Of a stretch of 64,000 nucleotides of DNA, positions 2,758 to 57,918 are shown piece by piece. Under the pieces are notes generated by a model that was not told the DNA's origin, ran no database searches, and worked only from the letters and a program-made list of their open reading frames with translations. Origin of the DNA: Aphrocallistes beatrix (Eukaryota > Porifera > Hexactinellida > Sceptrulophora > Aphrocallistidae); NCBI GenBank assembly GCA_963281255.1, contig OY725500.1, forward strand, positions 2,909,184-2,973,183, given 5' to 3'. The position numbers and the translations under genes were made by a program. The stretch's first letter is position 1. Each line of letters starts with the position of its first letter.

Positions 2758-4588
2758 TCGGGTACCAAAAGACCCCACTATGTCGTTTGTGCAATAAGTT
2801 CACTGGGGTGCCAAAAGACCCCACTATGTCGTTTGTGCAATAAGTTCACTGGGGTACCAAAAGACCCCACTATGTCGTTTGTGCAATAAGCTCACTGGGG
2901 TATCAAAAGACCCCACTATGTCGTTTGTGCAATAAGTTCACTGGGGTACCAAAAGACCCCACTATGTCGTTTGTGCAATAAGTTCACTGGGGTATCAAAA
3001 GACCCCACTATGTCGTTTGTGCAATAAGCTCACTGGGGTACCAAAAGACCCCACTATGTCGTTTGTTCAATAAGCTCACTGGGGTATCAAAAGACCCCAC
3101 TATGTCGTTTGTGCAATAAGTTCACTGCGGTACCAAAAGACCCCACTATGTCGTTTGTGCAATAAGTTCACTGGGGTATCAAAAGACCCCACTATGTCGT
3201 TTGTGCAATAAGTTCAATGGGGTACCAAAAGACCCCACTATGTCGTTTGTGCAATAAGCTCACTGGGGGTATCAAAAGACCCCACTATGTCGTTTGTGCA
3301 ATAAGCTCACTGGGGTACCAAAAGACCCCACTATGTCGTTTGTGCAATAAGTTCACTGGGGTACCAAAAGACCCCACTATGTCGTTTGTGCAATAAGCTC
3401 ACTGGGGTATCAAAAGACCCCACTATGTCGTTTGTGCAATAAGTTCACTGCGGTACCAAAAGACCCCACTATGTCGTTTGTGCAATAAGTTCACTGGGGT
3501 ATCAAAAGACCCCACTATGTCGTTTGTGCAATAAGTTCACTGGGGTACCAAAAGACCCCACTATGTCGTTTGTGCACTAAGCTCACTGGGGTACCAAAAG
3601 ACCCCACTATGTCGTTTGTGCAATAAGTTCACTGGGGTGCCAAAAGACCCCACTATGTCGTTTGTGCAATAAGTTCACTGGGGTACCAAAAGACCCCACT
3701 ATGTCGTTTGTGCAATAAGCTCACTGGGGTATCAAAAGACTCCACTATGTCGTTTGTGCAATAAGTTCACTGGGGTACCAAAAGACCCCACTATGTCGTT
3801 TGTGCAATAAGTTCACTGGGGTATCAAAAGACCCCACTATGTCGTTTGTGCAATAAGCTCACTGGGGTACCAAAAGACCCCACTATGTCGTTTGTTCAAT
3901 AAGCTCACTGGGGTATCAAAAGACCCCACTATGTCGTTTGTGCAATAAGTTCACTGGGGTACCAAAAGACCCCACTATGTCGTTTGTGCAATAAGTTCAC
4001 TGGGGTATCAAAAGACCCCACTATGTCGTTTGTGCAATAAGTTCAATGGGGTACCAAAAGACCCCACTATGTCGTTTGTGCAATAAGCTCACTGGGGGTA
4101 TCAAAAGACCCCACTATGTCGTTTGCGCAATAAGCTCACTGGGGTACCAAAAGACCCCACTATGTCGTTTGTGCAATAAGTTCACTGGGGTACCAAAAGA
4201 CCCCACTATGTCGTTTGTGCAATAAGCTCACTGGGGTATCAAAAGACCCCACTATGTCGTTTGTGCAATAAGTTCACTGCGGTACCAAAAGACCCCACTA
4301 TGTCGTTTGTGCAATAAGTTCACTGGGGTATCAAAAGACCCCACTATGTCGTTTGTGCAATAAGTTCACTGGGGTACCAAAAGACCCCACTATGTCGTTT
4401 GTGCACTAAGCTCACTGGGGTACCAAAAGACCCCACTATGTCGTTTGTGCAATAAGCTCACTGGGGTATCAAAAGACCCCACTATGTCGTTTGTGCAATA
4501 AGCTCACTGGGGTATCAAAAGACCCCACTATGTCGTTTGTGCAATAAGTTCACTGGGGTATCAAAAGACCCACATGTCGTTTGTGCAC
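2758..4588 (+). repeat. 46-bp tandem satellite, about 40 units
   Basis: The unit is GGGGTACCAAAAGACCCC followed by ACTATGTCGTTTGTGCAATA and AGTTCACT, 46 bp in all. Most variation is at a few sites (TACC/TATC/TGCC, AGTTC/AGCTC). The GGGGT...ACCCC ends can form a 5-bp stem. Blocks of variants recur with the same order, for example around 2900-3600 and 3750-4450, which suggests higher-order duplication of about 870 bp. The array ends abruptly in a hairpin-family terminus at about 4600. The same unit is found inverted at 37696-39110. Confidence 0.95.
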
Positions 4589-4900: not shown

Positions 4901-6577
4901 TCACTTAAGAGAGACTAGATCTTCACACTGTAAGCATACTAGTAAGTTCTTTGAATGAATCTGGCACACTAAAGTATCGCACATGAAGCAACATCTTTTT
5001 ACTTTTTTATCTTTTGATCTTTTACAGAAAAAACATCTCCCCCTAGGTAAATTTTTCGCTTGTACATCGGAGTATTCTATTGCTAAATCTGAGGAACTAT
5101 GTACTGGAATCGGAATTTCAGGAGTTGTTAGATCAGAATGAATCCCAGTCCCAGACTCAGATTGAATAGATTGAGGGGTTTCATTTATTGGTAAACCAAT
5201 ATCTTCTGACAGAGATTCAGGAGGGACTTCTTGTGTAGGGGCTACATGGGGAAGAATACTACCTGAGCCAGATACAACCAATTGCGAATCACCTACTCTA
5301 TCTAATAAGGATATCGTATGCAAATACGAATCCTCGCATAATTTTATCATGAAGTCCATTGACAGTTTCACGTCCCTATGGAGATATCTATAGTCAGGGG
5401 ATGACTTTCTGCGTTTGATGAGAGGAGTGACGAGTTGGTGTCCCAATTGATAGAGGAAATCTTTTCGATTCTTTTGCTTAACTAATAGTGAATTAGGATA
5501 CTTTAGCTGATAAATGACCCACGCTGCATGAATGGCAAATGCAATTAAGTCAGAGAATATGACGCATGGCCATCGTCTGGTCGAACGGTAAGGTCTAAAT
5601 GCGGTTATTTGTTGATCTAAGGAGTCAACCCCGGACTTTTGTTTATTATAATCTTGTATAACTTTAGGTTTTCTTTTAATATCATCTGCTGTTTCGGTAG
5701 TGTGATGAAAATTTGATAATAAAAGGACATATAGATTTTTCTTCCTGATATAAGAAATCATTGTATTTCCCTTATACGAAATAAATTTGGATGAAAATTC
5801 AGGAATTCCCTTTACGATCTTCATGATTTTTGGAATCTCTTTCCTATTTGATCTCATTGTTCCAAAATATAGAATTTTCTTTTCTGCAAATAATCTCTGA
5901 CTTAGAGGTAGAGGTGAAATAGTTGTCTCCAACCAATATTTGTCCTGGGCGAAGATTTTCTGCCAATCGACAAACCAAATCTTCAGTTTTATTGGGAAAC
6001 CGTGCTTTACCTAAGTAAACTTCAATAACTAATGGATAATATGTTTTCGAGTCGGCTATAATCCACAACTTTAACCCGTATTTCCCAGGCTTGGATGGGA
6101 TATATTGGCGAAACGAACACCTTCCACGATAACGAGCTAGACGTTCGTCGATTGTTAAGAACGTACCAGGTGAATAATATTTGAAAAGTGATGATTTTAC
6201 ACTTTCAAAAACCCAACGAATTGGAGCCAGTTTATCAGTTTTCAGCCTCTCCATTCGAGTGCTGTAATCGTCAAATCGTAGGTATCGAGAAAAACTTTTT
6301 AAACGTTCCCTTGGCATTGTAGCTTTGAATATTGGGCGTGATTTATTCGGGTCCTCCGAGTATAACTCGTTGATTGGTTCCTTGTTAGCCCGAAACACCC
6401 CAGTAAGAATAAGAAGCCCCAAATACGCATCTAATTCCATCAAAGAAAATGTATTTAAGTGTGATTTATTTCCAACAGCGGTAGCAGGGTTTTCACTCAA
6501 AATATCATTTAACTTCTTGTTGGTCATATCCAGGATATGTTGGCACAGCTCTTTATGAAAAAACAACTTGAAAATAT
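4901..6577 (-). CDS. piggyBac transposase, main exon (one frameshift)
   Basis: Translation gives a piggyBac DDE transposase core in two frames (6577-5900 and 5932-4901). Catalytic segments are visible: TIDERLARYRGRC (first Asp), GKYGLKLWIIAD, VGDNYFTS (second Asp) and DYNKQKSGVDSLDQQ (third Asp). The C-terminus is the Cys/His-rich zinc domain (RCFFCKRSKDKK through LVCLQCEDLVSLK). A single frameshift near 5905 follows VGDNYFTS; otherwise the frame is open for about 558 codons. The exon probably begins at 6577: on the minus strand a pyrimidine-rich run ending TTGGTGTAG precedes ATATTTTCAAG, giving the conserved IFKLFF. An AATAAA overlaps the stop at 4901. A matching first exon lies at 26711-27023. 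The near-intact frame suggests a young copy or past selection. Confidence 0.9.
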
Positions 6578-7157
6578 CTACACCAAGGATAAAAAGGATA
6601 GAGTTACAACATATTCCGACAGGAAACAAACAGGGCCGCTCCCAGGAATAAATACTGGGAGTATGCAGCCGAAGCGAGTCAAAAAGGGTGTTTGGGGCTT
6701 TGCCCCCCAGCGATTTTTTGGAAATATTGTGACAAAATGATCGATATATATATATGCCGAATGAAATCTGAAATTTGCCCACTGTGCAAAAATTTGGGGT
6801 ACGGCCCTTGTAGGGGTTCATTAGGGTGCCCCCCTAATGAACCCCTACAGCCCTGACGTTGATACCACCAGCATTTAGTCATTTTCCAAATCAGTCATCA
6901 AAATCTTCCATAATGGAATGCGAAACTGCCGACTGTTAAAAAAGTGGGGTGGGAGGGGCTGTCACCCCCCCACACCCCCCCATAGGACAGACCCTGGCAA
7001 CAGACAGTTAAAATACAAATGAATCTAAATAGTACTGTTGCATGACGGTTCAACTACCTGCACAGTGGGTTATTATTGCCAATTACTAGTATTAGGGTTT
7101 AAATGAAAAACTTGATGAGATATCGACATATATTGTATTATTGAGTCGGGCCGCCGG
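6578..7157. other. Non-coding interval with a strong perfect hairpin
   Basis: Directly 5' of the piggyBac exon on its strand, so intronic if the exon call is right. It contains GC-rich runs (TGGGGCTTTGCCCCCCAG near 6692; C-rich runs near 6970) and the 18-bp stem hairpin described separately. No gene is recognised. Confidence 0.5.
6809..6849. repeat. Perfect 18-bp stem, 5-base loop hairpin
   Basis: TGTAGGGGTTCATTAGGG, loop TGCCC, then the exact reverse complement. It is the strongest short perfect palindrome noted in the window outside the satellite arrays. It could be a collapsed miniature element or the scar of a fold-back insertion; no run of Us follows to suggest a terminator. Confidence 0.85.
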
Positions 7158-7717
7158 TAGGGTTGGAAAAAATCATGATTTTAAAAAAAAAATCAAAAAT
7201 CATGATTTATTTGATTTAAATCAGATTTATTTGATTTAAATCAGATTAATTTGATTTAAATCAGATTTATTTGATTTAAATCAGATTTATTTGATTTAAA
7301 TCAGATTAATTTGATTTATATTAGATTTTTATATATTTTTATCTATAATCATTTAGTCTTCTGTTTATTTTTATCTACTCATAATCAAATAGAATTCTAG
7401 AATAAACTTAACATTATCTACGTATAATAGAATGTTTTAGTGAAAAAAAACGAAAAATTAGAATAAATATTAATGAAGAAAGCAAAAATTAGAGTATGTA
7501 TTAATGTACGTAGAACTAGAAGAAATTATTTTTGAGTATTCAGCAGCTTGTATATAAATACTAATTTTCCTGCTTTAGCTATACCTAATCTATTCCTAAC
7601 TTTTGAATGTACAAAAGCCATCACACTTTTATCAAATAAGAAACAGGAAATATATTCCAAAAAAATCAAATAACAGGATTTTGATTTTTTTAAGTGATTT
7701 AAATCAAAACAACCCTG
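7158..7717 (-). mobile_element. hAT element remnant with transposase C-terminus
   Basis: The ends read TAGGGTTGG on the left and CAACCCTG on the right, a hAT-like inverted pair continued by AT-rich subterminal sequence containing TGATTTAAATCA. Inside, on the minus strand at 7526-7640, is the conserved hAT C-terminal segment HSKVRNRLGIAKAGKLVFIY. The rest of the transposase is lost. No 8-bp target duplication is recognisable, so one end may be eroded. Confidence 0.65.
7202..7325 (+). repeat. 21-bp tandem repeat, about six units
   Basis: The unit TTTATTTGATTTAAATCAGA plus T, with one-base variants (TTAAT), repeats inside the left end of the hAT remnant. Each unit contains the 12-bp palindrome TGATTTAAATCA, a possible expanded subterminal transposase site. 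Confidence 0.85.
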
Positions 7718-7953
7718 ATTATTGTTATATAGCAACTTGACTATTGCGGTTACTCTGATGTGGTCAAATTTGTCGTATCATTTCCTGTTTAAAAATTATG
7801 ACGTCACTATTTTCCATATATGGTATTAAATTGTTAATTTCTGCTAACTTGTATTTCCAACTGTGTAGTAACAGAATAGATTATATTGTCTAACAATAGA
7901 TCTAACCAACATTTAATTTAACAGTCAGTTATAAATCTACCAATTATGCTATA

Positions 7954-7987
7954 TCCTTACTATTAAAACTCGATTAATGTATATTTA

Positions 7988-8033
<46 letters not shown>

Positions 8034-8524
8034 ACGAATTGATTGAAGAAACTGCCAGGCGCAGAAAGCTGATTTTTGGCATGTGGGAGTATTTTGGCTA
8101 TGGCTCCAGTAAGTTCTGAGTTCAGAGCAAAATGTCAACTCATCATGGAATTATGACGTCATTGTAACATTTTTCAAAGTTAAGCAACACAGTTATTCGG
8201 GCATAACTCAGCCATTATAGGAGATAGAAGGCTGAAATTTTAATAGAATATGTATACTAACATATCTCACATATGATGCAACTATCATCAAAAAATGATG
8301 ACTCATCACTTTGCTATGACGTCATCATTACTCATCAAAATTATAAAAATTGACAAATACGGTGCTTTTTTGTGCGATATCTATAATAATAGTAGGAGAG
8401 ACGTATTTAGAGATGTTACCTCCCATTTAATTAATCAATGGTGACTACAGGCGACCGAAGGGAGCCTCCGGCGGACACGAAGTGTCCGCCAGCCGCGCAG
8501 CGCAAGCAAGCGAAGCGCGCTTGT
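7954..8524 (+). mobile_element. GC-hairpin-ended non-autonomous element, family 1, copy 1
   Basis: It starts A|TCCTTACTATTAAAACTCG, has an AT microsatellite, then GTAACGAATTGATTGAAGAA, a conserved body, and a GC-rich 3' end: GGCGGACACGAAGTGTCCGCC-type hairpin (9-bp stem), then CAGCGCAAGCAAGCGAAGCG, CGCTTGT. TC start after an A, no terminal inverted repeat and a 3' hairpin recall Helitron-like non-autonomous elements, but the last bases are TTGT, not CTRR. No coding region. Confidence 0.75.
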
Positions 8525-8582
8525 GCTATATATAAGCTAATCTTAACATAACTATGATTTCAGTATGACATTAATTACGATA

Positions 8583-10741
8583 TTACTCATCACTAACACT
8601 AACAATTTCTGTTAGATATTTGACTAGCTTATCAATGGAAGCCTGTGGATCCGATTCGTGGTTTGTGGACACATTTTCAATATCCTCCTTGTTTTTTCGG
8701 TAATTTTTTTGATACCCCACTTCACCGCAGAGTGAACAGACAAGAATTTTCCTGAAACTTTCGTTCAATACGGGACAGCCATAAACGAATAATCTCATGG
8801 CAATATCACTTAAGCCAAGGAATGAATCTGACTTCCTACTCAGACATGTAGAGAATTCTCTTATTAATTTATGACCTTGCTCAAGTCCTTCTTCTGAGTT
8901 ATTACAGAGGCCGATATGATCATTTCTCTCAATGAATTGGAACGTATGTGCCAAAAGTTTATGCAACGTATCGCTAACTGAAACCCATGGAAAGTTTTCC
9001 AAAATCATAATATAAGTATTTTGACTTATGACACGAAATCTTTCTACATTCACGCGCTCATTACTATTGGCAATTTTGAGCAGCGCAGATAAGTTAATGT
9101 GAATTTGAGATAGGATACCTTTGTAAGCTGGTGGTACAAAGGAAAGCGGAATTGAAAAACATGGTTTTTTGTAAGAAAAGAATATCCTAGTCATATTTCC
9201 AGTGCTTGTAGTGCCACTTCCTCCGGGTTGATCAAATGGCAAGTTTGTTACTTCATTAATGCGGTTGCAAATCAATGATTTATAGTCTCGAACTGATTGA
9301 TCTTCTGACCACTTAGATTTACCAGCTGCATTCTTGTAAACAACATTCAAGAACCAATCCAAGATTCTAAGATAAGAATGCAATGGAGCAGCTGGGACCG
9401 TCGATGATGCTTGCAGGTTCGTGTGTAATTCCACTTCTCTGAGCAGATTTATAACTCAAGAGTTCTTTTCCCTCAGAAGTCAGTTCACGGATTGTGTCTT
9501 TAATATCAGCTATCGAACAATCCAATGGAAGGCCGCATACAACTTTTGATAAGTTGTTGATATCGCTACGGTCTGATTTGCAAGCGATACATGGAGCACC
9601 ACCCTTTCCTGTCATCACAGACAATGCCTTACTATCGAACATAGAAGCTATAATCGACATATTGATTTGACCATTTGTATAATCAAACCCATTGCTGTGA
9701 AGTGAACTAATTTCACAATTCTGTAACTGAATCAATATTTTCTTTTTGACAAATTAATGCAACTGGTTGATTGGAAAATGGTGGATTTGGATGGCGATTT
9801 TCCCAGAGAACGTTTCAAAAATGATCGGAAACCTTAAGTGGTGACACCATGAAGAAAATGAAATGTGATCGGTCAATATTCAAGTTAGAAAGGAGGTTAG
9901 AGGAAGAATGGTTTCTGGAACCATCCAATCCATGTTTAATTTCAGAAATTTAAAGGATAAAAGTGTGGTGCTGGTAAATAGAAGTGGAAATTTCCCATTG
10001 TTCGTTGAAAAAGAGAAGTGACATGGGAGATGTATGATATGTAAACTCCTATAGGGTTTGAATTATTTGGATACCAATTAAATGTTGGTACAAAAGAGTT
10101 TCGAAACGAGCGAATTTGTTCCCAAGTAGACAGATTTAAACCATCTGATAGAAGATAATATCTCAGCTCTGTCCATTTGCTCCTTCCCAGCTTAAGATGA
10201 TAAGCTTTGAAGGTAGATTTTTCAGGGGAAACTTTCTTATTTACACTTTCTGGTTCTTCTCCAGAATAGATTTTCCAGGCAATATTTGCGATATTTTTCA
10301 ACCCGATTTCTTCAATGGCCACAATGTACAAGAGCAGTGCAATATACCTAACAACTGAAATATTTTCGAGAGATGCAAATTACGGATAGAACTTAATATC
10401 CCAATTTGATCTAACCTGTTTTTCTTTGATCGGATTTGAAGGTCATCTAGCGGTTTTCTCCTCTCAATATTTGGATCGATTTTGAAATCGAAATCAATAG
10501 AAGGTTGAGTTTGCTGACTGGTAACCTGAGGCTCCATTATTTCCCATGGAATATCAACACTCCACCACTCACCCTCTAGTTTATCTACTGACTTTTTACT
10601 TTTCTTGACACTCTTAGTGATCTTATACACCGAAGAGTTTACGAAGGGTTTCAAATCTTCCTGAAGATTGAGGACTGATACAATGTTTTGAACAGTTAGA
10701 TGGATGTTATTGATTTTGCGGTCGTTTTTAAGAACAAACAA
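8583..10741 (-). pseudogene. RAG1L: RAG1-like transposase, decayed
   Basis: Minus-strand frames line up in order with the RAG1 core. At 10440-10400 KPLDDLQIRSKKNRLDQI resembles the nonamer-binding region. At about 10200-10060 LSTWEQIRSFRNSFVPTFNW matches the segment before EWQPP. At 9940-9920 IKHGLDGS matches the first catalytic Asp (KESCDG). At about 9683 NGFDYTNG matches the second (GTGYDEK). A CIAC zinc pair lies at about 9595. VVYKNAAGKSKW matches EVYKNP..RKRW. HKLLAHTFQFIERNDHIG with NSEEGLEQGHK (about 8881) matches the segment of the third catalytic residue. A CSLCGE pair sits in the C-terminal tail. At least three frame changes (about 10330, 9740, 9440) and an in-frame stop near 9815 show decay. 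The zinc region and GLEQGHK favour RAG1-like over Transib. No RAG2-like kelch gene or terminal repeats were found. Confidence 0.85.
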
Positions 10742-10977
10742 TTCTATTATTTTTAAACACTATGTTGTCACCTTAATCTGGTGCGAAATTTTTGATCTGA
10801 TAGCTTAAAAATCGTAAAATAGTGGTGCATATAATTTTTGTGTGTTCATTTTACCAAGAAAACTTAAATTGACAACAGTATTTATTATAGTTCCGAAATA
10901 CATTGAACTTTAACTATAGTCATTATATAACGCTATTTATAGAAAAACTTCCAGCCGCAATTATGACCTTAGAAAAT
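10742..10977. other. AT-rich interval between the RAG1-like gene and the MULE end
   Basis: Nothing coding is seen. If the RAG1-like element has a right terminus it should be here, but I cannot point to a matching pair of ends. Confidence 0.4.
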
Positions 10978-11243
10978 GGCATTAGTCCTACTTTATTCTA
11001 ATGTAGGCGTTAGTCCTACTCTTAGAAAATAGCATTAGTACTACTCTTTTAAAATTAAAGTATTAATTTGTGCCACCCCATAATTTCTAACGTATTATAT
11101 TATGAAGTTATAAAGAAAGTAACGATGAAGCTTTATTATGAAAGTATAATGAAATTGTAGTGAAAGTAATGATGAAGTGATGAAAGTTGCTGAAAGGAAA
11201 AATATTGAAAGATTCTGGTAGTAGTTGAAGATTGGTTTAATAA

Positions 11244-11720
11244 TCAGTTCAGAAATATTTGTATCTTGTCTACGATTGCTGCTCTGCAGGTTGGACAGGT
11301 CTGAGCCGTTTCTGTTATAATGTTGCTACACTGGGTGCAACAGTTAACATGTTTACATGGCAAGAAAAGCCATGTAAACTCACGCTCAGTAAGAAAAACT
11401 ACACATAAATTTCTAACCGGTGATTCTTGCCTTTCTTCTTCTTCATCACTCTCATCCGTAATATCTGAAATGGATATGATGCTAGAATCATCCAAAGTAA
11501 TTGAGTAAGTTAGAGAGCGGAATATAGAGGCTAAAAATTCCCATGGAGTATAGATGCCATTAGTAAGTTTTTCTTTGCAGTCTTTCCTGTATTCAAAATC
11601 GAGCATGACTTGTCTTATCCTTGACCTACTGATTTCTCTTCCTAATTGTAATCGATAAATCTGATTTTCGTAATCTGCTATTACATCATTTAGAATTGCC
11701 TTGAATTTCCAAATTCGCCA
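11244..11720 (-). pseudogene. MULE transposase C-terminus with IAP-type RING
   Basis: The frame opens upstream of its first Met: WRIWKFKAILNDVIADYEN, IYRLQLGREISRSRIRQV, then an acidic linker (ITDESDEEEERQ), then a C-terminal RING: NLCVVFLTEREF, LFLPCKHVNCCTQC, TCPTCRAAI. The PCxH..C..C..CPxCR pattern is that of IAP/MUL1-like E3 ligases; the second ligand of the first CxxC pair is Phe (CVVF), so metal site 1 is incomplete. It is the downstream half of the MULE coding region at 14990-15840, now separated by the LINE. A RING on a transposase could recruit ubiquitin machinery, which is inference. Confidence 0.7.
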
Positions 11721-11724
11721 AATT

Positions 11725-12110
11725 CACTTCCGAATCCTAATTCTCCTCTTCTTCCTACTCCACCACAACCACCAACCATTCCTCACTATAGGCCTACACC
11801 TCTCCTCCCTCTTCCTTGGAGGCCTATCTCCTCACTCAGCTCGCACTCTCCTAGTATAAATAGGATCGAGTCAGCTGATCTTCCACTTCCGAATCCTAAT
11901 TCTCCTCTTCTTCCTACTCCACCACAACCACCAACCATTCCTCACTATAGGCCTACACCTCTCCTCCCTCTTCCTTGGAGGCCTATCTCCTCACTCAGCT
12001 CGCACTCTCCTAGTATAAATAGGATCGAGTCAGCTGATCTTCCACTTCCGAATCCTAATTCTCCTCTTCTTCTACTCCACCACAACCACCAACCATTCCT
12101 CACTATAGGC
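11725..12110 (+). repeat. 159-bp tandem monomers at the 5' end of the LINE
   Basis: Starts at 11725, 11884 and 12043 each read CACTTCCGAATCCTAATTCT; two full units and a partial third are present. Each full unit includes CTAGTATAAATAGGATCGAG, a TATA-like box. This resembles promoter monomers at the 5' end of some L1 elements. Confidence 0.9.
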
Positions 12111-12117
12111 ATATACC

Positions 12118-12891
12118 CTCCTTGATCGTGCTAGGTCAGCACATCGTCAGGGTGGAGGCACTGCACTTCTCTGTCGTGATTCCTTCACGCTGAAGTGCAA
12201 TGCATCTGGTGAAGTATCATCTTTTGAGTTCTCGGACTGGACTATCTCTTCTTCTGAAATCTCCCTTCGTATTATCCTAATTTATCGGCCTCCCTACTCA
12301 AGGAATCATCCTATTTCTATTTCTACCTTCCTTGATCAGTTTTCTTCTCTCCTCGGACCCATCCTCTTATGCAAGGAGCCCCTAATAATAACTGGAGACT
12401 TCAATAGCCATGTTGACATCCCGTCTGAGTCTTTACAGTTCTCCGAGCTCCTGCGTTCTCTATCTTTGATCCAGCATGTGAATCAGCCAACTCATGAGAA
12501 GGGTCACATTCTCGATCTAATAATATCCCGTTCTGCAGACAACATCATCCTCTCTGATCCCTCTCCTGTCCATCTATTCTCTGACCATTTCTCCATATCT
12601 TGTAGTCTCTCGCTTTCCAAACCTTCTCTTTCCTCTCGGGAGGTTACCTATCGTTCCAAATCCATCAACCTCCCAATCTTTCTTGCTGATCTCGCTTCCT
12701 CTAATCTATGTGCTAGCCCACCTGATCATCTTGAGGAAATTATTGTATTATATAACAGCACCCTATCCTCTATCTATGATCAGCATGCTCCTCCGCGATC
12801 CAAAACCATAGTCACCCGTCCCCGTGTCCCTTGGTTCACCAGTAGCATCAAGCAGGCCAAGCGAGTGAGAAGGAAAGCTGAACGGAAGTGA
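12118..12891 (+). pseudogene. LINE endonuclease-region ORF, 5' part
   Basis: Reading from about 12118: GGGTALLCRDSF, IYRPPYSRN, then GDFNSHVD (about 12397), then HILDLIISRS and SDHFSISCSL. These are APE-type endonuclease motifs. The amino end of the domain (the usual ETWL segment) is missing, replaced by the monomer region. The frame stops at 12889-12891 with TGA. A further 190 bp, broken by stops and frame changes, joins it to the RT frame. Confidence 0.75.
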
Positions 12892-13080
12892 CGCCAGTCT
12901 AATGACCCTGACCATTTGGCTGAATTCAAGCATCAGAGGAATCTTGTGACTGACCTGATGAACAGGGAACGTCAGTCAGTCCTGTCATGACCAGCGCTCA
13001 CTCTTCCGTAAGGCTAACACACTTCTCGGCTTACGCCAGCAACAGGTCCTACCACCTCATGCTGATAAGGCTGCTCTTTC

Positions 13081-14752
13081 TCAGGAACTCGCCAACTTCT
13101 TTGTTCTTAAGGTAGATAACATCCGTTCCACCATTGATTCAAGTGCATCGTCGTCTTCCGTTACCCCCTCAGATAATTCAAACATCAAATTCCAACATAC
13201 TTTCCACCAATTCAAAGAATTATCTGAGGAAGAAATTGTTTCCCTTGTTTCCTCTGCTCCTAATAAATCTTGCATCCTCGATCCTATCCCAGCATCCTTG
13301 GTCAAATCATCTCTACCCATCCTAGCGCCCATCCTTACGAAAATCGTAAATGGTTCCCTCTCCACTGGTCATTTTCCTTCTCCCTGGAAGCGCCATCATC
13401 TTCCCAAACTTAAAAGACCAAATCTTGATCCCATCTTCTCTAACTATCGTCCACTTAGCAATCTTACTTTCATTTCTAAGATCACTGAGAGGGCCGCTTC
13501 CATCCAGCTCGTGAATCATATTACATTACATCATCTCTTCCCCGGGACGCAGTCTGCCTATCGTAAACACCACAGTACGGAGACTGCGCTCCTGAAGGTC
13601 ACAAACGACATCCTCCTCAGCATGAATCGCCAACACGTATCCCTTCTGGTTCTTCTTGATCTTCGCTCAGCCTTCGACACCGTCGACCATACCATCTTAC
13701 TCAACCGTCTCCAGTCTCATTTCGGCATTTGCGGCTCTTCTCTGTCTTGGTTTGAATCTTACCTCACTGGTAGGACTCAATTCGTCTCGATTAAGGGTTC
13801 TAATTCCTCCAATATCCCGGTCCAACACGGAGTTCCTCAGGGTTCTTGTCTTGGTCCGCTTCTCTTTAGCCTCTATACTAGTCCTCTATTCGACCTCATT
13901 AGGTCCCACCTCCCCGACATGCACTGCTATGCCGACGATACTCAGGTCTATCTTTCTTTTAAACCCGGTTCCATCTCTTCTGAAGAATCTGCTTTCTCCG
14001 CCATCCAATCTTGCATCTCCGCGATCCGTTCCTGGCTCCTCATCAACAAGTTGCTTATCAATGACACCAAGACTGAGTTCCTTATAATAGGGACTCGTCA
14101 ACAACTATCTAAAGTTCAAACTGATAGCATCTCTGTTGGTGAGTCGAGAATCTCTTCTTCCAAAGAAGTACGGAATCTTGGAACTTAGCTCGACAATACC
14201 CTCTCAATGTCTACTCAGGTCAGCAAAGTTGCCTCCTCCTCCTTCTATTAGATCTATAACATCCGGCGTATTAGAAAGTATCTCTCTAGGGAAGTCTGTG
14301 AAACTCTTGTTAATTCTCTTATCACATCTCGTCTTGATTATTGTAACAGTCTCTTGTATGGTTGCCCCTCATCCCTCTTAGCTCGACTCCAGCGAGTCCA
14401 GAACAGTGCAGCCAGGCTTATCTACAATGTCTCTCGTACCTTTTCGTCATCTCCTCTTCTTATTAACCTCCACTGGCTGCCTGTTAAACATCGTATCCTC
14501 TTCAAAATCCCCCTCATAACTTACAAAGCCATCCATATTCTTGCTCCGGACTATATCATCCAGCTCATACAGGTTAAGTCATCCAATCGTACTCTACGAT
14601 CATCCAACGCCATCCTCCTTGAGCATCCTACTATCAAATCTTCCAAAACTCTGGGTGATCGTGCATTCACTTTAGCTGCGCCTGTTGAGTGGAATCTTCT
14701 GCCTCCGAGCATTCGGAATGCCCCCTCCTTCTTCTCTTCAAAAAACTCTTGA
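13081..14752 (+). pseudogene. LINE reverse transcriptase ORF
   Basis: The RT frame runs to 14188, where a TAG follows RNLGT (family sequence normally has a Trp-like codon here), and continues in other frames with TLVNSLITSRLDYCNSLLYG, RLQRVQNSAARLIYN and LHWLPVKHRILFKI, the conserved C-terminal segment of this clade. The catalytic YADD is intact at about 13929. Stops and frame changes make the copy inactive as it stands. Minus-strand frames here are shadows. Confidence 0.85.
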
Positions 14753-15838: not shown

Positions 15839-16565
15839 AGATAGCAATAGTAAATAACTCGAATAAGAATAAGATGTTATGCATGTTGCACGATATTGTA
15901 TTCAACGTGAACTGAGTATACATACTAGTAGTTGTTGATAAACACATTGACTTGTATAGATTTGACAACAATCGATGATTAACAAAAGCGAAACTAATAC
16001 ATATATGCACTTGTATGATTAACAGCAAGTCGATAAAAATAAATAATTCAATAATAGAAGTATGGGATTACTTATCTTTCACTGAGTGACAGGTCAGTAA
16101 TCCCATATTTGTATGGGGAATACACATTTTCTGTTATTTTATTACTGAGTAACAATCACTCAGTGACAGATAAGTAATCCCTAGAAGTACGTATTAGACA
16201 TAGTCTTAAAATATAATAAAAAAATATTACTTTAAGGTGGAAGGACTAACGTCTACATTAGGACTAATTCAATTTTATAAGAGTAGGACTAACGCCTTCA
16301 TCTGAATAAAGTAGGACTAATGCAAATTTAGGAGTAGGACCATGGCCTACTTAATATATGGCTAAATATGTTACCGAGGTCAGTTTTTGATGAGTGGAGA
16401 TATTTATCAGCGTATAATTCGAAAAATATGCATGATAGGCAATATAAATATATTACCTTCATATATAAATATGACATCAAAGTACGTATTAGTAAAAATG
16501 CTCAAAAATGTGATTAGTCATCATGTGGTTATGAAATGTGTTATTTTTAGAACAAAAAATGTTAT

Positions 16566-20532: not shown

Positions 20533-20952
20533 ATTAGTATTTTCAAAAAGAAAATAATATTGGTATTTCTACAGTAAGGATGAATTTATTGTCCTTGACT
20601 ATGGTCGACAAATTTTGAAGAACAGTTGTTTACAATAACTACGGTGTTAGTGTACTTTTACAAGCAAGTTTCGAAATTAAAATTTGGAGAAAGGTGATAC
20701 ACCCGCTTAGGACTGATGGGGCTAACTAATGGGGCTGACGAATATTTAGATGGGGCGCTAGCCCCATGCTAGCGCCGCCACTGGGTGTAACCAAAATTCC
20801 GAAGAGATCGGACATAAGTATTCATTATTGTTACTTACGAGTTACGACCTTGCATGCTCCTAAATTTTTTTCTTCTGGCGAGCAATATTTATAAGGAAAG
20901 TAGTTATAAAATGAAGGTAAAGGCTATCTATAACTAAATTGATAACACAACA

Positions 20953-21513
20953 TCCTTACTATTAAAACTCGATTAATGTGTATATATGTGTATATATATA
21001 TATATAGTATATATATATCTGTAACGAATTGATTGAAGAAACTGCTGGTCACAGAAAGCTGATTTTTGGCATGTGGGAGTCTTTTGGCTATGGCTCCAGT
21101 AAGTTCTGAGCTCAGAGCAAAATGTCGACTCATCATGGAATTATGACGTCATTGTCACATTTTCAAAAGTTAAGCAATACAGTTATTCGAGCATAACTCA
21201 GCCATTATAGGAGATAGAAGGCTGAAATTTTAATAGAATCTGTATACTAACATATCTCACATATGATGCAGCTATCATCAAAAAATGATGACTCATCACT
21301 TTGTTATGACGTCATCATTACTCATCAAAATTTTTAAAATTGATAAATTTGGTGATTTTTCGTGCGATATCGATTATAACAGTAGGACAGACGTATTTAT
21401 AGATGTTATCTCCCTTATATTTAACCAATGGGACCCCAGGCGACCGAAGGGAGCCTCCGGCGGACACAAAGTGTCCGCCAGCCGCGCAGCGCAAGCAAGC
21501 GAAGCGCACTTGT
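20953..21513 (+). mobile_element. GC-hairpin-ended element, family 1, copy 2
   Basis: Same start (A|TCCTTACTATTAAAACTCG), body and 3' hairpin module as the copy at 7954-8524, closely similar along the whole length. Ends AAGCGCACTTGT. Confidence 0.8.
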
Positions 21514-21545
21514 AATATATTAACTGGAGAATACACCTGCTGGTA

Positions 21546-30055: not shown

Positions 30056-31110
30056 CGAGAATTATCCTCAAAAACCGATCCAAAAGGGCCTGTTAAACCT
30101 AACAGGGAGGGGGTGTTATGATGTTGGTACGGGGCGGGTTAAGCCTAACTGAGAGAAAGAGAAGGGCTGTCTAATGCTCTCTATTCCCAGGCCTGTTTAA
30201 ACGTGCATAGCTCAGTCAGTTTTGCAGCTACAGGCATGGTATTACACAACTCTGATGGGGTCATTTTTGACCCCAGACTAAAACATTTGGTAGATTACTA
30301 TGGGGTCATTTTTGACCCCAGACTAAAACACTTCGTCGATTACTATGGGGTCAAAAATGACCCCACACCAAAACACTTCGTCGATTACTATGGGGTCAAA
30401 AATGACCCCACACCAAAACACTTCGTCGATTACTATGGGGTCAAAAATGACCCCACACCAAAACACTTCGTCGATTACTATGGGGTCATTTTTGACCCCA
30501 CACCAAAACACTTCGTCGATTACTATGGGGTCAAAAATGACCCCACACCAAAACACTTCGTCGATTACTATGGGGTCATTTTTGACCCCACACTAAAACA
30601 CTTCGTCGATTACTATGGGGTCATTTTTGACCCCACACCAAAACACTTCGTCGATTACTATGGGGTCATTTTTGACCCCACACTAAAACACTTCGTCGAT
30701 TACTATGGGGTCATTTTTGACCCCACACCAAAACACTTCGTCGAATACTATGGGGTCAAAAATGACCCCACACCAAAACACTTCGTCGATTACTATGGGG
30801 TCAAAAATGACCCCATAGTAATTGGTGTCGCGATTTTGAGTGGGGTCAGAAATGACCCCATTGTGATTGGTGTCGCGATTTGTGTGGGGTCAAAAATGAC
30901 CCCATAGTAATTGGTGTCGCGATTTTGTGTGGGGTCAAAAATGACCCCTTGGGCTAAGTATCCGTGAGGTTAATTAAAACCCTCGCCTGGCTAGGTCTCA
31001 AAAGTATAAATAGAGAAAACCCCACTTTCATTTTCACTTTCAACATTCCTAGCCAACCGCGGGTTTTAACAGGCCCTTTTGGATGGTGTTTTTGGAAATA
31101 ATTTCCGATT
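30056..31110. mobile_element. Inverted-repeat element containing the 45-bp satellite
   Basis: ATCCAAAAGGGCCTGTTAAA at 30078 pairs with its complement at about 31065-31087; pairing continues imperfectly outward for another 20-30 bp. Inside lie the palindromic satellite and, at its right, a small inverted unit TTAAAACCCTCGCC...GCGGGTTTTAA (30977-31070) with a TATAAATAG box, related to the TTAA-CCC MITEs. Confidence 0.75.
30257..30952. repeat. 45-bp palindromic satellite, 16 palindromes, array reverses direction
   Basis: Each unit has an 18-bp palindrome plus a 27-bp spacer. The palindrome is either GGGGTCATTTTTGACCCC (T form) or its complement GGGGTCAAAAATGACCCC (A form). In order: T T A A A T A T T T T A A A A A (one A form has a G). 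The spacer ACACCAAAACACTTCGTCG-ATTACTAT is in one direction up to about 30815; after that the 27-bp spacers begin ATAGTAATTGG and end GTGT, close to the reverse direction. Period 45 is a multiple of three, so long frames across it are artefacts. Confidence 0.9.
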
Positions 31111-35004: not shown

Positions 35005-37395
35005 AGGTCATGTATACCACACAGCTGGATTATTACTTCCTCTACCAGATAAACATCCGAAATTCCTGCAAATCTACTTCATGTTAAATGATGCAGAAGA
35101 AACACAACAACGGTGCCACATTATTCCAAGGAGCCAGATATGATATCGTTCATGCACTACAAGCCATGCTACATCTGCACAACAAATATGTTCATTCGTT
35201 TAAATATGCTCTTGAACGAATGCCTGAGTCAGGAGGGGAGTACAAGGTTATAATCAAAGCAGTTAAGACTCCCAAACGCGAACATGAACGCAGATTCAAC
35301 GCACCAGTGAAGAATGAGGTGGCTATCTTGATAGTTGAACAGGAATTTGAAAAAAGAGATATCGTATTAGAAAAACGGAACAGCAGCCTTCTAAGGATTC
35401 CTGAAACCCATCGGGCTTATGATTGTCATCAGTATCCTCTAATTTTTTGGGAAGGACAGGATGGATACAATTTCAAAATTCCTCAATCCAATCCCATAAC
35501 TGGGGCACAAACCAGGAAAGAAAGTTTCATCAATGGACTTCTATGCCTATCACTTTATGATTCGCAATGACAGCTACAACTCCATCCAACGGTGCAGGAA
35601 CTTATTCCACCAATTCGTTGTAGATATGTATGCTAAAGTGGAGACAGAACGCCTACATTACATCCGTCTAAACCAACGCAAACTACGAGTAGATGACTAC
35701 ATCCTTCTCCGTGATTCAATCGCTGCTGATGATGCAGCACGTAATGTGGGGAAATTAGTCATTCTGCCTGCTTCTTTCACTGGAAGTCCACGCTACATGC
35801 ACGAAAGAACACAGGATGCATTGACTTATGTCCGAAATTACGGCAGGCCATATTTGTTCATAACTTTCACCTGCAATCCACTCTGGCCCGAAATATCTAC
35901 CTCATTATTGCCGGGACAAACTGCTCACGACAGACAGGACATCATCGCCTGATTGTTCAGACAAAAATCGTCAAGTTGATGGACCTACTAACAAAGGGAG
36001 CTGTTTTTGGGAAGACATTCTGTCACATGTATTCAATTGAGTGGCAGAAACGTGGGCTCCCACATGCTCATATTATGATCTTGCTCAGCGAGAAGATCCG
36101 ACCAAATATGAGACAGATGCATCAGTGCTGAATTCCCTAATCCAGAAGAAGACCCAGAGCTATACACCATCATACGCAAACAGATGATTCATGGACCTTG
36201 CGGGCCTCTTAACAGAAATTCCCCATGTATGAAGGATGGCCGCTGCACAAAGGACTTTCCGAAGAGATTGTTGAGGGAAACTCAATCTGGTGAAGATGAC
36301 TATCCCAATACAGAAAAAGATCTCCTGATGACGGTGGTTTCTCAGCTACTATACGGCATGGAAACCAAGGAAAAATCACTGTCGACAACAAATGGGTGGT
36401 CAGCTACAGTCCTTTGTTGTGCAAAAAATTCAATGCACTCATCAACGTCGAAAATTGCAACTCCATCAAGTCAATTAAGTACGCTTGCAAGTACATCAAC
36501 AAGGGAACTGACCAGGAAATATTCACACTTCTAACAAGTGACAGAGATGAAATAGCAGATTTCCAGCACGGACGCTACATATGTAGCAATGAAGCCTCTG
36601 GAGACTCTTCAGCTTCCCTATCCAAAGATACCCTAGTGTATTTCATCTGAGTGTGCATCTAGAGAATGGCCAACGCATTTACTTCACTGAAGAAAACTTA
36701 CACCACCCAGATTGAATCACACACCAACTCCACTCTCATTGCCTTCTTCCAGGAAGATGATTTCGCCAAGACTCTCCTCTACGTGAGTGTTCCGGAGTAC
36801 TACACCTGGTGCCCCAGCACTACAAAGTACCACGACGTACCCAAGGAACATTAGTAGAGGGATTTCCTGGAATCAAGGAGAGTGATGCCCTGGGCAGAAT
36901 ATACACAGTTCATCCAAATAACTTTGAATGTTTCTGTCTCAGGCTTCTTCTACACCATGTTCATGGACCTACCTCATTTCACGATTTGAGAACTGTGAAT
37001 GGCCACATTTGTGAAACATTCAGGAGGCATGCAATATGAGGGACCTGTTAGAAGATGATGTACACTGGAATGACACTTTATCAGAAGCAGCTGCTGCAGA
37101 CTCCCCGATCAAGCTGAGATACTTGTTTGCTATCATGATTGCGTCATGTGGGCTCTCCAATTCCAAACAACTGTGGGAAACTCACAAGGGCAGTCTTTCA
37201 GAAGATATTCTCCATCATGTTCAGCAAGAGAATCCATCTATTGAAGTCGTTTTCAGCAACGTCATCTATAACCGAGCACTTCTGTTACTTGAAGAATTGG
37301 TCCTTTCCGTAAGTGGCAAGGTTCTGTAAGATTTTGGCATACCATCGCCAGTTTGTGAAGCCAACACCACAAACCGAGAGCTCTTGCGAGAAAAA
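35005..37395 (+). pseudogene. Helitron Rep domain, decayed and truncated
   Basis: Frames follow the Helitron replication protein: GHVYHTAGLLLPLPDKHPKF (35009), ALQAMLHLHNKYVHSFKYAL, EHERRFNAPVKNEVAIL, ETHRAYDCHQYPLIF, LFHQFVVDMYAKVETERLHY, SFTGSPRYMHERTQDALTYV, LFITFTCNPLWPEI, RGLPHAHIMI with the HUH motif HAH at about 36065, GPCGPLNRNSPCMKDGRCTK, SIKYACKYINKGTD with the Rep tyrosines, TVHPNNFECFCLRLLLHHVH. Roughly seven frame changes and stops break it. It ends after SGKVL...CEANTTNRELL at about 37385, before the helicase domain, where a GTGCCTCC repeat begins. Confidence 0.9.
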
Positions 37396-37695: not shown

Positions 37696-39110
37696 ACATA
37701 GTGGGGTCTTTTGGTACCCCAGTGAGCTTATTGCATAAACGACATAGTGGGGTCTTTATATACCCCAGTGAGCTTATTGCACACAAACGACATAGTGGGG
37801 TCTTTATATACCACAGTGAGCTTATTGCACAAACGACATAGTGGGGTCTTTTGGTACCCCAGTGAACTTATTGCACAAACGACATAGTGGGGTCTTTTGG
37901 TACCCCAGTGAACTTATTGCACAAACGACATAGTGGGGTCTTTTGATACCCCAGTGAGCTTATTGCATAAACGACATAGTGGGGTCTTTTGATACCCCAG
38001 TGAACTTATTGCACAAACGACATAGTGGGGTCTTTTGATACCCCAGTGAGCTTATTGCACAAACGACATAGTGGGGTCTTTTGATACCCCAGTGAGCTTA
38101 TTGCACAAACGACATAGTGGGGTCTTTTGGTACCCCAGTGAACTTATTGCACAAACGACATAGTGGGGTCTTTTGATACCTCAGTGAGCTTATTGCACAA
38201 ACGACATAGTGGGGTCTTTTGGTACCCCAGTGAACTTATTGCACAAACGACATAGTGGGGTCTTTTGATACCCCAGTGAACTTATTGCACAAACGACATA
38301 GTGGGGTCTTTTGATACCCCAGTGAGCTTATTGCACAAACGACATAGTGGGGTCTTTTGATACCCCAGTGAGCTTATTGCACAAACGACATAGTGGGGTC
38401 TTTTGGTACCCCAGTGAACTTATTGCACAAACGACATAGTGGGGTCTTTTGATACCTCAGTGAGCTTATTGCACAAACGACATAGTGGGGTCTTTTGGTA
38501 CCCCAGTGAACTTATTGCACAAACGACATAGTGGGGTCTTTTGATACCCCAGTGAACTTATTGCACAAACGACATAGTGGGGTCTTTTGATACCCCAGTG
38601 AGCTTATTGCACAAACGACATAGTGGGGTCTTTTGGTACCCCAGTGAACTTATTGCACAAACGACATAGTGGGGTCTTTTGATACCCCAGTGAGCTTATT
38701 GCATAAACGACATAGTGGGGTCTTTTGATACCCCAGTGAACTTATTGCACAAACGACATAGTGGGGTCTTTTGATACCCCAGTGAGCTTATTGCACAAAC
38801 GACATAGTGGGGTCTTTTGGTACCCCAGTGAACTTATTGCACAAACGACATAGTGGGGTCTTTTGATACCCCAGTGAGCTTATTGCACAAACGACATAGT
38901 GGGGTCTTTTGGTACCCCAGTGAGCTTATTGCACAAACGTCATAGTGGGGTCTTTTGGTACCCCAGTGAACTTATTGCACAAACGACATAGTGGGGTCTT
39001 TTGGTACCCCAGTGAGCTTATTGCACATACGACATAGTGGGGTCTTTTGGTACCCAGTGAGCTTATTGCACAAACGACATAGTGGGGTCTTTTGATACCC
39101 CAAAATTGGC
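37696..39110 (-). repeat. 46-bp tandem satellite, second array, inverted, about 31 units
   Basis: Unit CTTATTGCACAAACGACATA, GTGGGGTCTTTTGGTACCCC, AGTGAA: the exact complement of the 2758-4588 unit with the same variants (GGTACC/GATACC, GTGAA/GTGAG). Blocks of about 280 bp recur in the same variant order (for example 38095-38370 and 38375-38650). The right side grades into a TTAA-CCCGT terminus. Confidence 0.95.
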
Positions 39111-47282: not shown

Positions 47283-47945
47283 CATCCTTACTATTTAAAC
47301 TGGATTAATGTTTGTGTTTATATAAATAGACATGCGCGCTTCGATTGCTTGTGCTGCGCGGTTGGCGGACACATAGTGTCTGCCAGCTTATTGGAGACAT
47401 AGCCAAAAGACTCCCAAATGTCAAAAATCAGCTTCGTCTACTTGGTAGTTTCTTCAGTCAATACGTTATATACTATACTACACACATACACAAGCACAAA
47501 CATTAATCGAGCTTTAATAGTTAGGATATATATCTGTAACGAATTGTTTGAAGAAACTGCCAACCACAGAAAGCTGATTTTTGGCATGTGGGAGTCTTTT
47601 GGCTATGGCTCCACTATGTCCTGAGCTCAGACGAAAATGTCGACTCATAATGAATTATGACGTCATTGTCACCTTTATTATAATTAGAAATTTCAATTTT
47701 TTGACCATAACTCAGCCATTTTAAGTGATAGAAGGCTGAAATTTTAATCGAATGTGTATATTAATATATATCTCACATTTGAAATAACTATCATCAAAAA
47801 ATGATGACTCATCACTCTTTTATGATTTCACATTAAGCTTTAAAATTTTAAATTTCACAATTTGGGTGATTCCTTGTGCGATATCAATTATAACAGTAGG
47901 ACAGACGTATTTTGAGATGTAACTCCATTATAATTAATTAAAGTG
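47283..47945. mobile_element. Composite of three family 1 pieces, two head to head
   Basis: 47283-47320 is a family 1 left end on plus (A|TCCTTACTATTTAAACTGG). 47335-47525 is a minus-strand short copy with the 3' module (GCGCGCTTCGATTGCTTGTG, then GGCGGACACATAGTGTC) and its own 5' end (CATTAATCGAGCTTTAATAG). 47525-47945 is a plus copy (GTAACGAATTGTTTGAAGAA onward) without the 3' hairpin module. Confidence 0.65.
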
Positions 47946-53934: not shown

Positions 53935-55281
53935 TACAGGGTGGAACATAAGTGCTGTCCTATATCAAATAAATTAGAAATTGCTCTTATTATGCAACAA
54001 TAGGTATAACAGGCTTTATACTTCAAAAATCATTTAAACTATCAATTAGGTCATTTTATATAGCATTTCCAAATTGAACTATTAATTTTTGATATTCATA
54101 TATTGTCTTTATTTCTGACGCTTATTTTTTGCATATGGATGTCAATGACCACAGTTTATAGCTCAGATCTCAGGCAATCGGCATGGTTGTAGCAGGTATT
54201 ACGCAAAAAGAAGTTGCTCAGACCATTAACGTTAGTGAACGTTCGATTAGACGTTGGTACAGCAGTCACAATTCTGAGAAAACGCTAGAGACAAAAGCGC
54301 GGTATGGACGACTGCCGAAATTTCACCTTGTGGCAAAAATCGTAATTGCTAAATCTGTTACTAAAAGAAGGCAATCTACCAGAAAATTGACTAAAAGAAT
54401 AACAAGCATGGGCTACCCGATCACTCACACCACTGTTCGAAGATATTTGGCGAATTCTTTAGGTTTTAAATCTTACAAACGGATGAAAAGGCCGAAACTA
54501 ACGAATCGTCAGAAGGAAAATCGTCTCAAGTTTGCCAGAGAGCGCCAAGAGTGTACTGTTGATGATTTCAAAAGGGTTTTATGGTCAGATGAGTGTCCTT
54601 TTGAGTTATTCTCTATCCCTAATCGCCAAAATGATCGTGTTTGGGCACGAAACCCTGAAGTTGTCCCTCCATGCTACCAGGTGAAATTTCCTCCTAAAGT
54701 CCATGTGTGGGGTATGATGTCACACCAGGCTCTATCAGATTTGCACATTGTACCCAAAGGCCAAACTATAACCGGAGCTTAATATCGTGATTTTATTCTG
54801 ACAAACACTTGTAAGGATGCTCTCAAACGTAGGGCCAAGAAGGGCTCAATCCTAAAACTTGCGATGTCAAGAAACATGTCCGAGATTATCTTTCAACAAG
54901 ATGGCGCCCCCGCCCACACGGCTAAATAGACTCAGGAGTGGTGCGAAAACAATTTCCCCCACTTTTGGAGGAAGGAAGAATGGCCAGGCAACTCCCCAGA
55001 CTTAAATCTTATCGAGAATCTTTGGGAAATCGTGAAAGGCAAGGTCGATGAGATGGGACAACCAAGTGATATTGATACCCTTGTGAAAATATTTAAAAAA
55101 GCGTGGAGTCAGATAGATCCAGACATTTTGACGAACTTGGTGGCAGATATGCCTAATCGTATTAAACTTGTAATAGAAAGATATGGAGATTATATTGATA
55201 AGTGAATCATAGCATACTATAACTTAAAATTCCATTTATTTGACATAACTCAATAGGACAGCACTTATGTTCCACCCTGTA
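53935..55281 (+). mobile_element. Tc1-type transposon, near complete
   Basis: TA-CAGGGTGGAACATAAGTG, CTGTCCTAT at the left and ATAGGACAGCACTTATGTTC, CACCCTG-TA at the right are perfect inverted ends of about 27 bp. It inserted at a TA inside repeat R, whose sequence continues on both sides. 1345 bp, a standard Tc1 length. Confidence 0.95.
54183..55205 (+). pseudogene. Tc1-type transposase with two in-frame stops
   Basis: A single reading frame holds the whole protein (about 340 codons): helix-turn-helix region (GITQKEVAQTINVSERSIRR; RLPKFHLVAKIVIAKSVTKR), WSDECPFEL (first Asp), NDRVWARNPE, VHVWGMMSHQ, FQQDGAPAHTA (second Asp), WPGNSPDLNLIENLWEIVKG (Glu; DD34E spacing). TAA at about 54781 follows QTITGA and TAG at about 54927 follows APAHTAK; there are no frameshifts. 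So it is recently inactive, fitting its perfect ends. The ATG at 54183 may not be the original start. Confidence 0.93.
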
Positions 55282-57377: not shown

Positions 57378-57918
57378 ACAACCGCGCTTCGCTTGCTTGC
57401 GCTGCGCGCAGCTTTGTGTCCGCCGGAGGCTCCCTTCGGTCGCCTGGGGTCACATTGGTTAATTATAAGGGATATACATAGTATCTCTAAATATGTCTGT
57501 CCTACTGTGATAATCGATATCACTCGAAAAATCACCAAATTTGTCAATTTTAAAATTTTTGATACGTAATGATGACGTCATAACAAAGTGATGAGTCATC
57601 ATTTTTTGATAATAGTTGCATTATATATGAGACATGTTAGTATACAGATTCTATTAAAATTTCAGCCTTCTATCTCCTATTATGGCTGAGTTAGGCTCGA
57701 ATAACTCTGTTGCTTAACTTTTAAAAATGTGGCAATGACGTCATAATTCCATGATGGGTCGACATTTTGCTCTGAGCTCAGAATTTACTGGAGCCATAGC
57801 CAAAAAAACACCCACATGCCAAAAATTAGCTTTCTATGACCTGCAGTTTCTTCAATCAATTCGTTACAGATATATATATATATATATATAAACATTAATA
57901 GAGTTTTAATAGTAAGGA
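57378..57918 (-). mobile_element. GC-hairpin-ended element, family 1, copy 3
   Basis: On the minus strand it begins A|TCCTTACTATTAAAACTC and ends AAGCGCGGTTGT after the GCAAGCAAGCGAAGCG module. The 9-bp hairpin is partly lost (GGCGGACACAAAGCTG). Confidence 0.8.

Follow-up and report, generated by a model that had tools for sequence, protein, structure and literature searches.

Remains of a Transib/RAG1-superfamily transposase, probably a Transib relic and possibly one of Subgroup I

Transibs are jumping genes and accepted relatives of RAG1, which makes them distant cousins of the enzyme that cuts the antibody genes of vertebrates. Both HzTransib and RAG1 are of the DDE type and act on ends that start with CAC and are cut via hairpins, and insertion is accompanied by 5-bp duplications. 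The PDB entry 6pqn, one of several for this protein and entitled 'DNA-mediated transposase', is HzTransib from Helicoverpa zea, a member of Subgroup II (PMC9435367).

Transibs are already known from many invertebrates; the reported hosts include protostomes, cnidarians and echinoderms as well as fungi (PMC7204232). One or a few copies are typical, and attempts to locate the ends of two fossil sea-urchin relatives failed (PMC4411706). In a survey of mollusc genomes a single Transib element was counted, which argues against Transibs being abundant everywhere (PMC10294476). Tao and colleagues (PMC9435367) place most of the previously identified Transibs in Subgroup II. They report that the RAG2-binding part of the zinc domain, alpha11-alpha12, has been retained by RAG1L, by bacterial Transibs and by those of Subgroup I, and that Subgroup II has lost it. 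They also report a tail termed CTT1 in RAG1L and Subgroup I Transibs. The tail motif Cx2Cx3GHx4C is reported for RAG1L (PMC7204232).

On the minus strand of the window, i.e., of the whole stretch of 64,000 nucleotides that was analyzed, the decayed remains of a Transib/RAG1-superfamily transposase lie at about 8583-10741. They were found to be divided into five pieces in changing frames:

About 10301-10759, minus strand: most N-terminal piece, placed by position only; contains RKPLDDLQIRSKKNRL (10412-10459) and is possibly a candidate nonamer-binding-like domain.
About 9945-10379, minus strand: N-terminal piece, colinear, placed by position and frame only; probably the region preceding the catalytic domain.
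About 9710-9943, minus strand: first-Asp piece with IKHGLDGS and LWENRHPNPPFSNQPV; in-frame stop at 9815-9817.
About 9400-9706, minus strand: second-Asp piece with MFDSK and CIAC, followed by a region of RAG1 length; lies within the frame 9367-9753.
8583-9455, minus strand: C-terminal piece, a frame of 290 amino acids with LH, GSGTT..GN, HKLLAH, the third catalytic residue and the CSLC tail.

The transposase reading is interrupted by at least four frame changes and one in-frame stop, and the copy cannot make transposase protein any longer. Adjacent pieces overlap or almost abut, and the frame changes therefore look like damage and not like introns. What remains includes the catalytic residues D, D and E, the zinc residues of CxxC and HxxxxH, and signatures of the Transib type. 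We consider it very probable that the locus is a defunct Transib, a DNA transposon of the cut-and-paste type, and the genome around it is most likely that of an animal. If it behaved like other members of the family, the living protein would have bound short ends starting with CAC, the ends would have been cut through hairpins formed on the flanking DNA, and the element would have inserted with 5-bp target duplications.

The catalytic and zinc residues, the tail motif and the strings quoted in the earlier note are located as follows:

9917-9940, minus strand: IKHGLDGS, with the first catalytic Asp (D at 9923-9925).
9670-9693, minus strand: NGFDYTNG, a string quoted in the earlier note.
9628-9642, minus strand: MFDSK, with the second catalytic Asp by alignment (D at 9634-9636).
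9580-9591, minus strand: CIAC, the CxxC zinc residues.
9309-9344, minus strand: VVYKNAAGKSKW, likewise a quoted string.
Within 8946-8966, minus strand: HKLLAH, the HxxxxH zinc histidines.
8868-8900, minus strand: NSEEGLEQGHK, with the third catalytic residue (E at 8880-8882).
8700-8738, minus strand: CSLCGEVGYQKNY, beginning with CSLC, a decayed Cx2Cx3GHx4C tail motif.

An earlier note on this DNA had quoted IKHGLDGS, NGFDYTNG, CIAC, VVYKNAAGKSKW, NSEEGLEQGHK and CSLC, and all six are present on the minus strand between 8583 and 10741. The note had read three of these strings as the catalytic segments. This holds for IKHGLDGS and NSEEGLEQGHK but not for NGFDYTNG, since the second Asp aligns with MFDSK. 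NSEEGLEQGHK aligns with SEEASEARNK of HzTransib and SEGNESGNK of RAG1, and its E is presumably the counterpart of mouse E962 (numbering compared with the PDB letters). The first and second Asp are separated by 97 residues in the window, 99 in HzTransib and 108 in mouse RAG1. The residue opposite mouse R848, as read off the alignments, is T in both the window and HzTransib.

The C-terminal piece was compared to the PDB with phmmer, which gave 17 different sequences with E no greater than 1. HzTransib (6pqn) matched with E 6.4e-14, the amphioxus RAG1L (BbRAG1L) with 9.1e-6 and the best RAG1 with 6.3e-4. That the locus is a decayed member of the RAG1/Transib superfamily of transposases is borne out. 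When the five pieces were joined by X into a sequence of 695 letters, the corresponding values were 1.7e-17, 4.6e-6 and 2.6e-3. In this joined search the stretch before the C-terminal piece matched HzTransib weakly (12.7 bits, independent E 0.32). Piece 9706-9400 alone gave one unrelated PDB match (E 1.4), and the two N-terminal pieces, at about 10301-10759 and 9945-10379, gave neither a Pfam match nor a significant match in the joined search; piece 9945-10379 had no significant match by itself either. The nonamer-binding-like segment of the earlier note is thus unconfirmed. The Pfam RAG1 family PF12940 matched the C-terminal piece with E 3e-5 and 22.8 bits, under the curated cut-off of 25, and the joined pieces with E 1.1e-4. 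An AlphaFold model of the C-terminal piece alone had a mean pLDDT of 39.1 and was therefore unfit for a fold search.

Local alignment scores were also set against those of shuffled sequences. The HzTransib score of piece 9943-9710 was reached by none of 500 shuffles and that of piece 9706-9400 by 3 of 500, which is more than chance; the scores against mouse RAG1, the one RAG1-type reference used for these two pieces as the amphioxus RAG1L letters cover the C-terminal region only, were reached by 67/500 and 100/500, respectively. For the C-terminal piece the z values were 36.0 (HzTransib), 19.4 (amphioxus RAG1L) and 11.4 (mouse RAG1), with 0/500 shuffles reaching the score in each case. Thus all three of the C-terminal pieces scored best with HzTransib.

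Over the C-terminal region the window is 29.3% identical to HzTransib (198 aligned positions), 22.4% to amphioxus RAG1L (PDB 6b40; PMC7204232) and 19.5% to mouse RAG1 (9jpu). The latter two values roughly agree with the 'less than 22%' identity reported for Transibs in PMC7204232. Between the references, amphioxus RAG1L and mouse RAG1 are 37.9% identical to each other and 22.8% and 21.1% identical to HzTransib, respectively. A GSGTT stretch before GN is common to the window and HzTransib and absent from mouse RAG1 and amphioxus RAG1L. At the first Asp the window reads DGS, in line with the DG[A/S] shared with HzTransib, whereas mouse RAG1 reads DGMGD.

In a likelihood test with IQ-TREE (LG+G4), made on four sequences, unrooted and over the C-terminal region only, the grouping of the window with HzTransib and of amphioxus with mouse was ahead by 21.8 log units, a result with which a stem RAG1L lineage remains compatible. 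Both other groupings were rejected (p-AU 0.001 each). As far as these aligned sequences go, the test excludes that the window groups with either of the two sampled RAG1-type sequences or falls between them.

The earlier note had described the zinc-region CIAC and a further string as more RAG1-like than Transib-like. Since the database matches, the shuffle tests, the identities, the AU test and the GSGTT stretch all favor HzTransib, this description is unsupported. Placement with Transib, which the note itself had named as counting against its reading, is what we observed, although with single reference sequences in place of Transib profiles; there is also a weak match to RAG1.

The zinc region departs from this pattern. 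The interval between CxxC and LH measures 67 residues in the window, 64 in mouse RAG1 and 30 in HzTransib, an internal frame change leaving a few residues' doubt in the window. The zinc region of the window is therefore not of the HzTransib type, and this, together with the broken state of the copy, is where the window differs from an element that it otherwise resembles in catalytic and zinc residues, and in the GSGTT..GN and first-Asp signatures, and that is its best sequence match. The spacing from the second Asp to the E is 252 residues in the window, 211 in HzTransib and 254 in mouse RAG1, with a few residues' doubt left by the joins; it is RAG1-like because the zinc region is long. From their place, we infer that the extra residues correspond to the alpha11-alpha12 region. 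In the tail, CSLCGEVGYQKNYR has kept three of the five defining residues of Cx2Cx3GHx4C, the H having become Y and the last C having become R. CxxCxxxG occurs 7 times in the 127,996 translated positions of the six frames of the window, the tail copy included, and 0.003 occurrences are expected per 60-residue tail.

Part of the earlier reading thus stands, namely the RAG1-like length of the zinc region, and the tail adds a decayed CxxCxxxG. The score of the zinc-region stretch against the mouse RAG1 region was reached by 196/2000 shuffles and is not significant. A RAG1-like zinc length combined with the tail motif agrees with the description of Transib Subgroup I in PMC9435367. Subgroup I Transibs are reported there to have both alpha11-alpha12 and CTT1; the window, which is likened to them by description, matches the former in length and retains a trace of the latter. 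As a fair guess, the zinc region of RAG1 length and the cysteines of the tail suggest Subgroup I, the Transibs closest to RAG1L. Put fully, the relic may be a single-gene Subgroup I Transib that retained the RAG2-docking zinc stretch and the CTT1 tail and descended from the intermediates that gave the RAG-like transposon, a tentative reading that we regard as slightly less probable than its opposite. Should it be true, intact sister copies in the same animal would show how a RAG1-type transposase used that stretch before it acquired RAG2. Living sister copies of Subgroup I would be somewhat important, since Subgroup I bears on the gain of RAG2 by RAG1, while one further dead Transib copy changes little. 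We regard the locus as an unexceptional relic of a familiar type that may belong to Subgroup I.

The same two features, the CxxC-LH interval of 67 residues against 64 in RAG1 and the CxxCxxxG in the tail, would also be found in a relic of a RAG-like transposon, i.e., the RAG1L of a RAG1L-RAG2L pair of which the RAG2L half was lost. The tail has the CxxCxxxG of the motif reported for RAG1L (PMC7204232), amphioxus RAG1L belongs to the same superfamily, and vertebrate RAG1 has a homologous catalytic core and a zinc region of nearly equal length. The sole relevant Pfam match is likewise to RAG1, although Pfam-A may lack a separate Transib model. However, BbRAG1L and RAG1 match more weakly than HzTransib, grouping with either BbRAG1L or mouse RAG1 was rejected, the window has the GSGTT stretch that both lack and DGS in place of DGMGD, and the RAG1-length region is without significant match to mouse RAG1. 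Neither was a RAG2-like partner found nearby, in agreement with the earlier note: no kelch or PHD match was obtained in any of the 39 window frames of at least 100 amino acids (E up to 1 or 0.01) or in nine read-through stretches of the flanks (both strands of 6801-8602, the plus strand of 10601-12102; E up to 1). We therefore consider a RAG1L relic improbable.

If the host had domesticated a Transib or RAG1L transposase and the frame changes were introns, the gene would be expected to retain the three catalytic residues and the zinc residues, as is the case here. Ordinary introns would not fit between pieces that overlap or almost abut, and one piece has an in-frame stop and the tail motif is without two of its five residues, which leaves this explanation very unlikely.

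It is equally far-fetched that the locus belongs to a RING-plus-core gene of the RAG1 kind, the N-terminal part of which would be the RING frame that lies upstream at 11244-11723, also on the minus strand, since the 17 PDB matches of that frame (E up to 0.01) include no RAG1 chain, the frame ends just past the RING, and the intervening DNA contains a repeat also present at 16259-16329. The RING frame was rejected as a RAG1-type N-terminus, its RING resembling those of MGRN1, XIAP and BIRC. The N-terminal transposase pieces gave no Pfam match to the N-terminal non-core zinc fingers of RAG1.

For the Transib relic, candidate ends were sought among 483 CAC...GTG pairs (left 5800-8583, right 10741-13800) and compared to 50 controls made by shuffling the DNA in blocks of 100 bases. 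The best combined end score was 17, which was reached by 4 of the 50 controls. Of the pairs with all 5 bp duplicated, the best (6396 and 10783) had 11/20 matches and was equalled in 2/50 controls; its left end falls within the piggyBac frame 5847-6833. CACTATTTT at 7805 and 10824 gives a 9-bp match, with one of the five duplication bases agreeing. The candidate terminal repeats are not convincing, being at most marginal relative to the shuffled controls, and the scan misses ends without CAC. Among the 25 of 140 pairs listed in an inverted-repeat search, nothing resembled Transib ends. CACWRTG occurs 94 times in the window against 23.8 expected, an excess caused by two 46-bp tandem arrays that account for 72 of the 94. 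Searches of viral, prokaryotic, phage and plasmid collections yielded no second copy, which is weak evidence because an animal transposon is unlikely to be there.

The surroundings of the relic contain a number of other repeats and elements:

4901-6833, minus strand: two overlapping frames of a piggyBac-type transposase (Pfam DDE_Tnp_1_7).
11244-11723, minus strand: RING frame resembling the rings of MGRN1, XIAP and BIRC, with a stop directly after the RING.
12109-14185: LINE.
35500-36128: Helitron-type frames.
54162-54779: Tc1-type helix-turn-helix pieces.

No link between the RING frame and the transposase was seen. Searches for tRNA (ARAGORN, bacterial setting) and for Rfam families (gathering score) gave no match in the window. 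Nup98 and Mob1 domains show that the window is eukaryotic; its source is probably an invertebrate animal. Directly 3' of the transposase, 7953-8531 is a 579-bp dispersed repeat with a GC-rich end; long related copies were found at 20952-21520, 57378-57890 and 47526-47941, and several further places have shorter fragments rich in GC. The 46-bp-unit tandem arrays at 2760-4587 and 37696-39102 (39.7 and 30.6 copies) share one unit in opposite orientations, the latter array lying about 1.6 kb after the Helitron-type frames. Two adjoining 45-bp tandem arrays at 30255-30948 both have units with a TGGGGTCA-4-TGACCCCA palindrome.
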